The notes beneath the pieces are model-generated. The model was not told where the DNA came from and ran no database searches. It saw only the letters and a program-made list of their open reading frames with translations. Source: Balneola sp. (GTDB taxonomy: Bacteria > Bacteroidota > Rhodothermia > Balneolales > Balneolaceae). Taken from it: a stretch of 64,000 bases of DNA. The translations under genes were made by a program, and so were the position numbers. The stretch covers positions 310,001 through 374,000 of the forward strand of contig RHLJ01000001.1 in NCBI GenBank assembly GCA_003712055.1, given 5' to 3'. Positions 17,966-61,053 of this stretch are shown here, piece by piece. How positions within the stretch are numbered: position 1 is the first letter of the stretch; every line of letters starts with the position of its first letter.

Positions 17966-18018
17966 GAAGTAAGAACATTGATCAATTATCAATTTTTCAA
18001 TGTTCAATTTCTTACTTC
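17966..18018. repeat. Inverted repeat after the DUF445 gene, possible terminator
   Basis: Arms GAAGTAAGAA (17966-17975) and TTCTTACTTC (18009-18018) are perfect, with a second nested pair ACATTGA / TCAATGT. It is A+T-rich and resembles other imperfect inverted repeats in this window. It may act as a terminator or be a mobile palindromic repeat. Confidence 0.6.
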
Positions 18019-18067
18019 TTATTTCCTTGTTCTTTATTCCTGATTTTCAGCCTATGCTCTTCTCCAA

Positions 18068-18440
18068 GGTCATCCTGAACTTGTTTCAGGATCTTTGTAA
18101 GGCTTAGCTCTGTAAAGCATCTTACAGAATATGAACAAAGGCTATGTATATTTTGTAACTAATTCTAAAAGATCAACGCTTTATATAGGGGTAACAAACG
18201 ATCTTTCCAGAAGAATATGGGAACATAAAATTGGAAGCAGCTCTACTTTCACATCCAAATACAAACTTACTGTGCTTGTATATGCAGAAGAATTTGATTC
18301 GATCACAGATGCTCTTGCAAGAGAGAAACAGTTAAAGAATTGGCATAAAGACTGGAAATGGAATTTAGTAAAAGAGCAGAATCCTAAATTAATAGATTGG
18401 TATGAGACATTACAGGTATAGCTACAAGTTCAGGATGACC
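18068..18440. mobile_element. Candidate mobile element: GIY-YIG gene between perfect 16-bp inverted repeats
   Basis: The unit starts GGTCATCCTGAACTTG (18068-18083) and ends with its exact reverse complement (18425-18440). Between them lies only the GIY-YIG gene plus a 50-base leader. The left end also folds into a small hairpin (CCTGAA / TTCAGG) followed by ATCT. The same GTCAT...ATGAC ends bound several gene-free repeats elsewhere in the window. No target duplication is obvious in the immediate flanks. That it moves is inference. Confidence 0.6.
18131..18421 (+). CDS. Small GIY-YIG endonuclease
   Basis: 96 residues forming a single GIY-YIG nuclease domain: GYVYFVTN for the GIY part, LYIGVTNDLSRRIWEH for the YIG part with the conserved Arg, and AREKQLKNWHKDWK with the catalytic Glu region. 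It belongs to the small single-domain COG2827/UPF0213-like proteins, which have no attached DNA-binding domain and mostly unknown roles. The coding region ends four bases before the right 16-bp inverted repeat of the element that contains it. This suggests a nuclease that acts on the element's own ends or hairpins. The family call is firm; the mobile role is a hypothesis. Confidence 0.9.
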   Translation: MNKGYVYFVTNSKRSTLYIGVTNDLSRRIWEHKIGSSSTFTSKYKLTVLVYAEEFDSITDALAREKQLKNWHKDWKWNLVKEQNPKLIDWYETLQV

Positions 18441-23853: not shown

Positions 23854-23960
23854 GTTCATCCTAAGCATACCTGCCTGTCCTCCGTATGAGCACTTCGGAA
23901 GGCGGGCGAAGGATCTAGTCATAGACCCATTTAGATTCTTCGGTAAGCCTCAGAATGACC
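23854..23960. repeat. GTCAT/ATGAC-type palindromic element
   Basis: It begins TTCATCCTAAG and ends CTCAGAATGACC. Inner blocks GGCGAAGGATCTA and TAGATTCTTCGG pair imperfectly. It belongs to the dispersed hairpin family also found at 28733, 30754, 43431 and 44730, with an extra insert of about 35 bases in its left arm. Confidence 0.75.
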
Positions 23961-24033: not shown

Positions 24034-24711
24034 ATGATCTGGATAATTTTATCTACTCTTATTACATCTCTTTTAAGCCTTTGGTTTGGGTATAAAAGAC
24101 TCCTCCATATTCATGACCTTAGCATCCGGAATGTATTAGTATCGATCACTATAGGAATACTGACCTACTCGATCATGCTTTATCTATTTAAAGTTGACCT
24201 TCTTTCTGAAGCTGTTTCTGGAGCAATTATAACCAATGTTTATGCTTCTATTTTTGGGTTTTTCTCAGGAGCCGCGTTAAATCAATATCAAATCCGCACT
24301 AAATCTGGCAAAATCGTTTATGTGCATCGTAGTTTTATTTCGGAATATGTCCCGGTTATTATAGCCCTGGCTCTTATCCTGTTTAGTCTCTATCGATCCG
24401 GATTACTTACCGATCTTGCCATTACGCCCATAAGGGTTACTTCAGGTCTCTCCTTCCTGGGAATTGGCTTATGGGGAATCACGTTAAGACTGGTTCCTGA
24501 ATTCAGAGAACAGGGAATCATCTTACTCGATACTTGCATTAACTGGGAAAATTTGATTAACTATCAATGGTTCTCCGAAGTAGTCCTTGAAATTGAATAT
24601 GAATTAGAAGGCTCAATTAAGCATTTCAAAACACTCATCCCTCCCGAAGACCAACCTGAGGTCGAACGCCTACTTTCTAAAAAAATGAGAGAGAAGGTTG
24701 AAGAATTTTGA
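24034..24711 (+). CDS. Hypothetical membrane protein
   Basis: 225 residues with about five hydrophobic helices in the first 155 residues (near 2-20, 33-52, 62-82, 105-122 and 132-152). A soluble C-terminal part of about 70 residues ends in a charged helix (LLSKKMREKVEEF). I do not recognise the family. It precedes yajQ by 59 bases, but an inverted repeat lies between, so co-transcription is uncertain. No functional motif is visible. Confidence 0.7.
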   Translation: MIWIILSTLITSLLSLWFGYKRLLHIHDLSIRNVLVSITIGILTYSIMLYLFKVDLLSEAVSGAIITNVYASIFGFFSGAALNQYQIRTKSGKIVYVHRSFISEYVPVIIALALILFSLYRSGLLTDLAITPIRVTSGLSFLGIGLWGITLRLVPEFREQGIILLDTCINWENLINYQWFSEVVLEIEYELEGSIKHFKTLIPPEDQPEVERLLSKKMREKVEEF

Positions 24712-24756
24712 ATTTTAAATTTTGAATTATCTATATCTTAATTCAAAATTTAAAAT
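24712..24756. repeat. A+T-rich 18-bp inverted repeat before yajQ
   Basis: Left arm 24712-24729 and right arm 24739-24756 are exact reverse complements over 18 bases with a 9-base spacer. A similar A+T-rich inverted repeat lies on the other side of yajQ (25278-25319). Confidence 0.85.
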
Positions 24757-24770
24757 CAAAAATTCTAACC

Positions 24771-25259: not shown

Positions 25260-25277
25260 GGCAATTAAAAATGAAAG

Positions 25278-25319
25278 ATGAAAAATTTAAAATGAGCTCC
25301 TCTATTTTAAATTTTTCAT
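25278..25319. terminator. Inverted repeat between convergent genes, likely bidirectional terminator
   Basis: Perfect 16-bp arms ATGAAAAATTTAAAAT (25278-25293) and its reverse complement (25304-25319), with a 10-base loop. It lies between yajQ (plus) and the CoA-binding gene (minus), where it could stop both transcripts. Confidence 0.7.
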
Positions 25320-25337
25320 TTTGAATCCCTAATTCAC

Positions 25338-28732: not shown

Positions 28733-28833
28733 GTCATTCTGAGCCCGCCTACGCGAAGCCGCTTCGGCAAAGGCAGGCGAAAGCGAAGAATCAACTAGTT
28801 CCGTTGATCCTTCGGCAGTAGCCTCAGGATGAC
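28733..28833. repeat. GTCAT/ATGAC-type palindromic element
   Basis: It begins GTCATTCTGAGC and ends CCTCAGGATGAC. Inner blocks include GCGAAGAATCAA and TTGATCCTTCGG. It carries an extra G+C-rich hairpin in the left arm (CGCCTACGCGAAGCCGCTTC). It belongs to the same family as the copies at 30754, 43431 and 44730. Confidence 0.8.
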
Positions 28834-28861: not shown

Positions 28862-28998
28862 GTCATCCCGGGCCTGTCCGCCGAACAAGTCTTTGGAAGG
28901 CGGGCTTGACCCGGGATCTGTAGAGAATTGAACGTTGATATAGCACTAGCTTTATCAAAGCATTTCCTTTAACAGATGCTGAAACGAGTTCAGCATGA
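28862..28998. repeat. Composite GTCAT...ATGAC element with two hairpins
   Basis: The left part (GTCATCCCGGG ... CCCGGGATCT) is a G+C-rich palindrome. The right part ends with hairpin ATGCTGAA / TTCAGCAT (28976-28996) and then GAC. About 55 bases between them match nothing else seen here. The right hairpin recurs identically at 34971-34991. Confidence 0.7.
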
Positions 28999-29044
28999 CC
29001 TGATTAATTGAGTCTTGAATAAATGAATAAATCAACATATTTTA

Positions 29045-30753: not shown

Positions 30754-30828
30754 GTCATTCTGAGCGAAAGCGAAGGATCTATATGGGTTGAAGCCGCTTA
30801 GATCCTTCGCAGGTATGCTCAGGATGAC
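30754..30828. repeat. GTCAT/ATGAC-type palindromic element between convergent genes
   Basis: It begins GTCATTCTGAGCG and ends GCTCAGGATGAC. Inner arms GCGAAGGATCTA and TAGATCCTTCGC pair perfectly over 12 bases. It lies between the cupin gene (plus) and the TPR gene (minus), where the folded RNA could end both transcripts. Confidence 0.85.
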
Positions 30829-34888: not shown

Positions 34889-34994
34889 CGTCATTCCGAA
34901 TTCATTTCGGAATCTTAAGAAAAGGCTCTGTTCAATCATAAGCCCTAATAAGTATTGAGGCATCACTAAGATGCTGAAACGAGTTCAGCATGAC
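34889..34994. repeat. Composite GTCAT...ATGAC element
   Basis: The left hairpin is ATTCCGAA / TTCGGAAT followed by CT. The right hairpin ATGCTGAA / TTCAGCAT (34971-34991) is identical to one at 28976-28996 and is followed by GAC. The two are separated by about 55 bases. It lies between the RNase D and amidase genes. Confidence 0.75.
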
Positions 34995-43430: not shown

Positions 43431-43502
43431 GTCATTCTGAGCGAAAGCGAAGAATCTAATCGGGTATTCGACTAGATCCTTCGGCAGTAGCCTCAGGATG
43501 AC
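43431..43502. repeat. 72-bp GTCAT/ATGAC element between trpB and trpA
   Basis: It begins GTCATTCTGAGCGAAAGC and ends GCCTCAGGATGAC. Inner arms GAAGAATCTA / TAGATCCTTC pair with one mismatch. The loop contains CGGGTATTCG. Its twin at 44730-44801 has the same length and the same arms, but its loop holds the exact reverse complement of this decamer. Confidence 0.9.
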
Positions 43503-44729: not shown

Positions 44730-44801
44730 GTCATTCTGAGCGAAAGCGAAGAATCTAGACGAATACCCGTCAAGATCCTTCGGTAGTAACCTCAGGATGA
44801 C
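44730..44801. repeat. 72-bp GTCAT/ATGAC element between trpF and trpB
   Basis: Same arms as 43431-43502 (GTCATTCTGAGCGAAAGC at left, CCTCAGGATGAC at right). The loop contains CGAATACCCG, the exact reverse complement of the loop decamer in the other copy. It lies entirely between the trpF stop and the trpB start. Confidence 0.9.
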
Positions 44802-59962: not shown

Positions 59963-61009
59963 ATGAATATTGAAAATCCTGCGTTATTCTTCTTTAGTGC
60001 CATTGGGGCATTCAATGGACTATTCCTAAGTACCTATTTTGCGTTCTTTATCAAGGAGAAAAACCAAACTACGTTACTCCTTGCCGGTACTTTATTAATG
60101 GTGAGTATAAGAGTAGGGAAATCAGTGTTCCTCAATTTTAATCCATTAATCTCGAATATTTTCATTCAAATAGGACTTATCGCATGTGGATTAATCGGGC
60201 CATTCCTTTTTCTATATATAAAAAGTGTAATGTCGAAGAAACAGATCCATATCGGATATATACTTGGGCATATCCTCCCCTGGCTTATTGCGCTAATTAT
60301 TCTTTCCTATTACTACCCTTATCATGAGTTCAGGCATATTTGGAGAGGTTTTTTGGTACGAAGTATTTATACACAATGGGTCTTATACATTTTGCTATCA
60401 GCAGTTATAGGCAGAGGGCTCTTTATCAAGCTGTTCAAAAAAGAAGAGAAACTTTCCGTTGGTGAGGTCTGGAGTATTAACATCTTGGTGGGAATATTTT
60501 TGATTTGGCTGGCCTACTATACCAGTGGCTATACCTCCTATATCATGGGAGCACTCACATTTTCATTCATCTTCTACTTATCAGCTCTGCTCTGGTTTTT
60601 CAAAGTCAGGAATAACCCTCTTTATTTTGAGACTCCAATGAAATACTCCAATCGAAAAATCCCTGAGAATGAAGCCAAAGAATTTTCTTCCAGGCTAGAA
60701 TTGGTTTTTATTGAAGGTGAGGTTTTTAAGCAGCCTGATCTAAAAATTGCTGATGTTGCTTCTCAATTGGAAGTCTTGCCTCATTATCTTTCTCAGTTTC
60801 TTAATGATAACCTTGGTAAGAGTTTTTCGGCTTTCGTTAATGAATACAGGATCAAAGCTGCTGAAAAACTACTTAGAGAAAATTCTATCCTGACTTTAGA
60901 AGCAATTGGAAAGGAAGCTGGTTTCAGATCTAACTCATCTTTCTATAGTGCTTTTAAGAAGGTACATGGGATCACCCCGGCCCAATACAAGAAGTCTTTC
61001 GAGAGCTAA
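59963..61009 (+). CDS. Membrane-embedded AraC-type regulator
   Basis: 348 residues. Seven or so hydrophobic helices span residues 5-210. A C-terminal AraC/XylS domain follows (about 245-345), with DVASQLEVLPHYLSQFLND and EAIGKEAGFRSNSSFYSAFKKVHGITPAQY as its two helix-turn-helices (about residues 262-280 and 313-342). This 7TM-AraC layout is common in Bacteroidota and lets a membrane sensor bind DNA directly. The signal and target are unknown; the preceding operon is one candidate. A strong terminator follows. Confidence 0.92.
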   Translation: MNIENPALFFFSAIGAFNGLFLSTYFAFFIKEKNQTTLLLAGTLLMVSIRVGKSVFLNFNPLISNIFIQIGLIACGLIGPFLFLYIKSVMSKKQIHIGYILGHILPWLIALIILSYYYPYHEFRHIWRGFLVRSIYTQWVLYILLSAVIGRGLFIKLFKKEEKLSVGEVWSINILVGIFLIWLAYYTSGYTSYIMGALTFSFIFYLSALLWFFKVRNNPLYFETPMKYSNRKIPENEAKEFSSRLELVFIEGEVFKQPDLKIADVASQLEVLPHYLSQFLNDNLGKSFSAFVNEYRIKAAEKLLRENSILTLEAIGKEAGFRSNSSFYSAFKKVHGITPAQYKKSFES

Positions 61010-61010
61010 G

Positions 61011-61053
61011 GTGAATTTGGGATAAGAAAGATCTTATCCCAAATTCACTTTTT
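61011..61053 (+). terminator. Strong Rho-independent terminator
   Basis: A perfect 17-base stem (61011-61027 with 61032-61048), 4-base loop AAGA, then TTTTT. It ends the AraC-type gene and probably the upstream operon if there is read-through. Confidence 0.95.

Follow-up and report, generated by a model that had tools for sequence, protein, structure and literature searches.

A GIY-YIG nuclease gene between inverted GTC-tagged hairpins as a probable REP-type mobile element in Balneola

The window analysed here is a 64,000-nucleotide stretch of the Balneola sp. genome, and one compact unit within it consists of a nuclease gene bracketed by inverted copies of a tagged hairpin with the formula GTC-ATCCTGAA-CTTGT-TTCAGGAT-CT (Table 1). 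The left hairpin is complete, comprising the GTC tag, an 8-bp stem, a 5-nucleotide loop and the CT tail, and in the sister copies of the unit in the host genome (L003 and L006) the hairpins are whole on both sides of the gene. The left end, GGTCATCCTGAACTTGT (18068-18084), and ACAAGTTCAGGATGACC (18424-18440) are exact reverse complements of each other. An earlier note on this DNA had described the ends as perfect 16-bp inverted repeats; they are indeed perfect and inverted, but they are 17 bp long, with extended arms of 26 nucleotides that match at 88%, and by nature they are halves of a GTC-tagged REP-type hairpin. Classical terminal inverted repeats were therefore rejected as the main reading, since each end is a self-complementary hairpin with a tag. 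Similarly, the stop codon of the gene, which the same note had placed four bases from the right end, ends 2 bases short of the right repeat and 19 bases short of the outer end. Taken by itself, the leader between hairpin and gene folds weakly in the energy model. The window also carries A-T-rich inverted repeats without a GTC tag (17973-18005, 24702-24766, 25263-25334 and 61008-61051), the first of which falls in extra sequence to the left of the unit.

Table 1. Features of the unit and related hairpins in the window
Feature	Position	Strand	Basis or remarks
Whole REP-nuclease-REP unit	18068..18440	+	Inverted repeat; most long matches to copies elsewhere start at 18068
Complete left tagged hairpin	18069..18094	+	GTC tag, stem ATCCTGAA/TTCAGGAT, loop CTTGT, tail CT; 59 genome copies, compensatory changes, ssDNA fold
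Leader with GTAAG..CTTAC inverted motif	18095..18130	+	Motif kept in nearly all of 18 aligned copies
GIY-YIG nuclease gene, 96 aa	18131..18421	+	Pfam PF01541, alignment, AF2 model, structural matches
Right tagged hairpin, cut to half (ACAAGTTCAGGATGAC)	18424..18439	-	Full hairpin at the equivalent place in L003 and L006
Single class II hairpin	23935..23959	-	
Gene-free class II pair, left hairpin long-looped	28733..28833	.	
Single copy, hairpin family of the unit	28976..28999	-	
Gene-free class II pair (5-bp stem, tandem G.A, inner stem)	30754..30828	.	
Gene-free inverted pair, same hairpin class as the unit, tags outward	34890..34994	.	
Gene-free class II pair	43431..43502	.	
Gene-free class II pair	44730..44801	.	

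That the unit encloses a complete GIY-YIG domain gene was borne out, as its product matches the Pfam family (PF01541) with E=1.2e-16 and 61.2 bits, against a curated cut-off of 22.6, and carries the catalytic residues. Among 52 aligned homologues Y7, Y18, R28 and E65 are invariant, and N84 is kept in at least 90%. The AF2 model of the protein (pLDDT 92.7) has structural matches to Slx1, UPF0213, UvrC and I-TevI, and the best of these in fold are to Slx1 (Z 6.5-7.3), tied with UPF0213. Slx1 nevertheless differs from the window protein, which shares at most about 25% identity with it and lacks both the Slx1 RING and the Slx4 partner. By sequence, the nearest solved structures are UPF0213 (YhbQ) proteins only (1zg2 and 1ywl, E 1.8e-11), and a match to TIGR01453 is sub-threshold. 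Since the protein retains the catalytic residues and its model shows the GIY-YIG fold, it very probably works as an active nuclease.

The 26-base hairpin recurs throughout the host genome, with 59 copies against 0 for the reversed pattern, counts that hinge on a pattern allowing up to 3 mismatches. In the tabulated copies GTC is kept in 57 of 58 and the CT tail in 56 of 58, the base preceding GTC varies (G, A, C or T), the first stem pair is constant, and stem changes comprise 32 double compensatory against 6 single-sided ones. Therefore, with stem positions varying mostly in pairs and GTC and CT retained, it is the hairpin together with its tag that is conserved. As single-stranded DNA the window-type hairpin folds with -6.1 kcal/mol (z -3.9). 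Many copies are arranged as pairs with their tags outward. The window itself contains 11 tagged hairpins, as compared to 0-2 in 20 shuffles, and most of them form gene-free pairs of about 72-105 bp, in keeping with the earlier claim that the ends of the unit are common to gene-free palindromes and at odds with their being unique to this locus.

Some of these hairpins belong to another class, class II, with a stem of 5 bp, GA/GA mismatches in tandem and a further stem-loop inside (GTCATTCTGAGCGAAAGCGAAGAATCT), which adjoins a different nuclease clade and folds weakly by the energy model. The tandem GA/GA is seen, for example, at 23935-23959, 43431-43455 and 44730-44754, sometimes with GCGAAAGC. 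A related sequence, d(GCGAAGC), forms a DNA mini-hairpin of unusual stability, and this would agree with single-stranded DNA being the form that acts. Besides class II, the host genome also has GCGAAGGC hairpins, which are non-cognate to the 96-residue nuclease.

The association between small GIY-YIG genes and tagged hairpins extends well outside the host genome. A profile search with these proteins yielded 80 named loci from Bacteroidota, Alphaproteobacteria, Betaproteobacteria, Chloroflexi, candidate phyla, Leptospira relatives, Fibrobacter and others. A GTC-tagged hairpin lies within 300 bp of the gene in 67 of the 80, and on both sides in 49, as compared to 5/76 and 3/71 (together 8/147, about 5%) for control windows 700-1000 bp away; the expectation that such ends would be enriched over chance beside small GIY-YIG genes thus held. 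Most of the 13 named loci scored as bare have long-loop or mismatched versions of a hairpin. When hairpins were sought blind to the tag, GTC was found on 145 of the 180 near the gene, and hairpin density there was 12.7 times that found more than 800 bp away. Plain chance was rejected by the reversed-pattern, control-window, tag-blind density and shuffle controls. Among 70 loci with hairpins on both sides, the tags point outward in 40 and inward in 15. YhbQ-type small GIY-YIG genes of the same genomes, which fall into separate clades, served as an internal control, and 15 of 16 were without hairpins. In the host genome, all seven small REP-type GIY-YIG genes adjoin GTC-tagged hairpins, which are of three types, one per nuclease clade. 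Similarly, a homologue in Neisseria gonorrhoeae is flanked on both sides by dRS3-type hairpins, CGTCATTCCCGCGCAGGCGGGAATC.

Different nuclease clades have different hairpins, even in the same genome. Within one genome, hairpin similarity is 0.71 between the two sides of one gene, as compared to 0.35 between different genes (p=1e-7). In a check of the kind proposed in the earlier note, nuclease divergence tracks hairpin divergence across genomes (Mantel r 0.34, reached in 0 of 2000 permutations; r 0.36 for named loci only). Mapped on a tree built from 141 small GIY-YIG proteins, hairpin class switches between I and II 3 times, as compared to 10 times or more in 200 shuffles. The window repeat is present in 19/19 genomes with the cognate gene and in 25/179 others among 198 sampled genomes of the phylum (Fisher 1e-14, although the relatedness of these genomes means that Fisher values overstate independence), and at least 5 copies occur in 17/19 genomes with the gene against 9/179 without it. 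One genome first taken as an exception, G012, is the clearest case of pairing, in that it has two repeat copies in all and both flank its single nuclease gene. This cognate pairing makes the hairpin the likely target of the nuclease. Seven genomes (G208, G064, G188, G129, G124, G157 and G165) hold 9-18 repeat copies but no cognate nuclease scoring over 100 bits; they may have lost the gene once the repeat had spread, or may use a more distant nuclease.

A separate lineage of YhbQ-like small GIY-YIG genes directly adjoins tRNA genes (Met, Ser, Gly, Leu, Val and Asn), with one protein clade per tRNA. It was found in the host genome (L010, G000:C6:241386) and at L041, L043, L051, L066, L069, L070, L078, L079, L080, L087 and L090. 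At several of these loci the tRNA 3′ end and terminator recur as a direct repeat at the far side of the gene, the longest being 78 bp in L070, and a single change separates REP-type from tRNA-type nucleases on the tree. This lineage looks like a second GIY-YIG element, inserting at tRNA ends.

Mobility of the REP-type unit is supported by dispersed copies whose borders lie sharply at the tags. The cognate gene has 5 copies in genome G078, while G176 has 5 that are full-length and truncated ones besides; the copies lie in unrelated places and include broken versions. For example, locus L374 is 95-96% identical to L371 and L372 from GGTC to GACC, and beyond these points they have only a few chance bases in common. 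Likewise, homology between L003 and L006 runs from -62 to +38 around the gene and ends at GTC and GAC, that is, from tag to tag. Nuclease copies are often broken by stop codons, and their distribution is patchy. At the window locus, synteny of the neighbouring genes for a DUF445 protein and an S8 peptidase is kept in all of the six relatives compared, and the unit is absent from each; no homologue was found at this position in any of them, so the refuting case named in the earlier note, a homologue there without the repeats, did not arise. The spacing between these neighbours is 36-65 bp in the three relatives for which it was estimated (G001, G002 and G052) and 608 bp in the window, so more than the unit was added here. 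In a search for empty sites, as the earlier note had suggested, presence and absence of the unit are clear, but neither an exact insertion point with a target duplication nor a fresh insertion appeared at the window locus in the six relatives, at L374 in seven genomes or in 260-310 kb of Sphingobium plasmids. On those plasmids one gene-free hairpin (site C) is bordered by a direct repeat of about 11 bp, possibly reflecting a deletion instead.

Several loci hold partial forms of the unit. In Sinorhizobium, strain Ak57 has two units where K101 has only a hairpin pair, and in Ak57 (S. meliloti, L211) the first of the two neighbouring units has kept both hairpins and lost most of the nuclease gene, and is an internal-deletion derivative. 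Pieces with the left end only, equivalent to 18067-18154 of the window, occur in G052, G088 and G176. One site on the Sphingobium plasmids carries, depending on the strain, hairpin-gene-hairpin, one doubly tagged hairpin (TYG64 and TYG74) or neither. As gene-free pairs likewise turn into a doubly tagged hairpin (W03 as compared to W01 and W02), this single-hairpin state may have arisen by deletion. The gene-free pairs on plasmids AP027312, AP027315, AP027325 and AP027328 are near-constant at about 82 bp, and one strain has a single doubly tagged palindrome instead. Units at L370, L371, L372 and L375 (G176), L366 (G078) and L381 (G052) are nested in a repeat of about 530 bp with outer inverted ends TTGTAGATGT/ACATCTACAA; since they lie inside this larger repeat, these nested copies of one genus may be moved by something else.

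With a probability of about 0.74, we read the unit as an autonomous REP-type mobile element composed of GTC-hairpin, leader, GIY-YIG nuclease gene and hairpin-GAC, which would depend on recognition of the hairpin by the nuclease and on copying by the host. The earlier suggestion of a tiny mobile element that is driven by its nuclease, perhaps works on hairpin DNA and leaves gene-free descendants is supported by flank enrichment, by pairing, by co-occurrence and stem covariation, by dispersed tag-bounded copies, by the absence of the unit from the orthologous site in relatives and by gene-free hairpins at the site in Sinorhizobium K101 and Sphingobium TYG64/TYG74. The nuclease would recognise hairpins of its own family, probably folded from a single strand, a form favoured by the conservation of the small hairpin with its tag and by the REP/RAYT-like logic, and would cut at or near the GTC tag. 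GIY-YIG enzymes hydrolyse DNA and are not known to join strands, and it would thus fall to host replication or repair to complete the copying of the tag-to-tag unit, or of a gene-free pair of hairpins, into new positions. Every clade of nucleases would serve its own hairpin family, and the scattered single and paired hairpins would be non-autonomous offspring. Counting against this reading are the failure to find a clean insertion with a target duplication, the 608 bp at the window locus, the larger repeat around copies of one genus, the nine genomes with at least 5 repeat copies but without the cognate gene (gene loss being possible), the hydrolytic nature of GIY-YIG enzymes and the weak fold of class II hairpins.

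The main rival to an autonomous element is homing-like copying, in which the nuclease cuts a gene-free hairpin site that is then repaired from a hairpin-gene-hairpin copy, such that only the gene moves between existing sites. GIY-YIG is a classic homing nuclease domain (PF01541, with TIGR01453 sub-threshold here), and Sinorhizobium K101 and Sphingobium TYG64/TYG74 do have hairpins without the gene where relatives have hairpin-gene-hairpin. However, the TYG64/TYG74 hairpin could equally be the footprint of a deletion, and hairpin and gene are jointly missing at many sites, including the window locus in the six relatives, Shinella H4-D48 and Sphingobium TYG72/TYG65. Moreover, an insertion by homing interrupts the recognition site of its own nuclease, whereas most loci have an intact hairpin on either side of the gene, and we regard this rival as unlikely.

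Quite unlikely, in our estimate, is that the nuclease is not the mover at all but a host or selfish site-specific single-strand nuclease, for which the hairpins are recognition sites, for example in limiting uptake of single-stranded DNA or in self-regulation, with the repeats spreading otherwise. GIY-YIG enzymes are known as hydrolytic nucleases, SsnA of Neisseria is reportedly a GIY-YIG nuclease that cuts single-stranded DNA site-specifically and affects transformation, and the dRS3-type hairpins lie on both sides of the Neisseria homologue. Yet the gene is multicopy, dispersed, sharply bounded from tag to tag (G176 and G078), often broken by stops and patchy, and it therefore behaves as an element and not as a host gene. 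It is very improbable that the gene merely landed among hairpins, these being insertion hot spots or being moved by a RAYT (a Y1 tyrosine transposase). The host genome does have three Y1_Tnp genes, and insertion sequences are known to target REP arrays (PMC1525189). However, GTC-tagged hairpins are lacking at the borders of all three Y1_Tnp genes, and a RAYT as mover was rejected on this ground; hot spots do not account for clade-by-clade pairing, for the similarity across phyla or for the two copies of G012, and in these genomes other small GIY-YIG genes stand without hairpins.

The element as we read it resembles REP/RAYT systems (REPtrons and REPINs, with IS200/IS605-like tyrosine transposases) in its tagged hairpins, in a gene flanked by cognate inverted hairpins, in gene-free doublets as offspring and in the pairing of enzyme with repeat. 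It differs in that the window enzyme is a GIY-YIG protein and not an HUH tyrosine transposase, that the hairpins do not flank the Y1_Tnp genes of the host, that the tag is GTC and not GTAG, and that the nuclease gene is itself multicopy and dispersed. A 2025 report is said to describe Ssn, a family of site-specific single-strand GIY-YIG nucleases from Neisseria. These share the small GIY-YIG domain, and dRS3-type hairpins flank the Neisseria homologue, which, like the window protein, may belong with them; mobility and co-spread with REPs are argued for the window nuclease and set it apart. If confirmed, Ssn would supply the biochemistry of the model and lower the novelty of the enzyme-target part, not that of the element reading.

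The hairpins themselves have close counterparts in the CGTC-tagged REPs, a large superfamily that includes dRS3 of Neisseria (a CGTC-1 repeat) and RPE-4 and RPE-6 of Rickettsia, for which no dedicated transposase or other enzyme was found and for which whether, and by what, they move was left open (Di Nocera, De Gregorio & Rocco 2013, PMC3733652). Both have an unpaired (C)GTC tag at one end, an 8-9 bp stem starting with AT, a loop of 4-5 nucleotides and a short tail, both form pairs in opposite orientation, and alphaproteobacterial hosts are prominent. Indeed, the window hairpin has the GTC tag, an 8-bp stem (ATCCTGAA), a loop of 5, a high copy number (59) and several outward pairs. In contrast to that work, which names no enzyme, a GIY-YIG nuclease gene is found here inside hairpin pairs, and a second hairpin class, with a 5-bp stem and tandem G.A, is added. 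No link between GIY-YIG proteins and REPs was found in the literature that we searched. The small GIY-YIG nuclease is the natural candidate for the enzyme of CGTC-tagged REPs, and the pairing offers, for every hairpin family, an enzyme that can be tested. More tentatively, and at somewhat less than even odds, small GIY-YIG nucleases may move the whole CGTC-tagged superfamily in many phyla; they would then join the HUH and DDE transposases as a third type of enzyme for mobile elements, one that would cut the hairpin hydrolytically and leave joining to the host. If so, some of the commonest short bacterial repeats, dRS3 of Neisseria included, would be the offspring of a 100-residue nuclease, and bacteria would be a source of numerous small nucleases, each paired with a hairpin target and differing in specificity.
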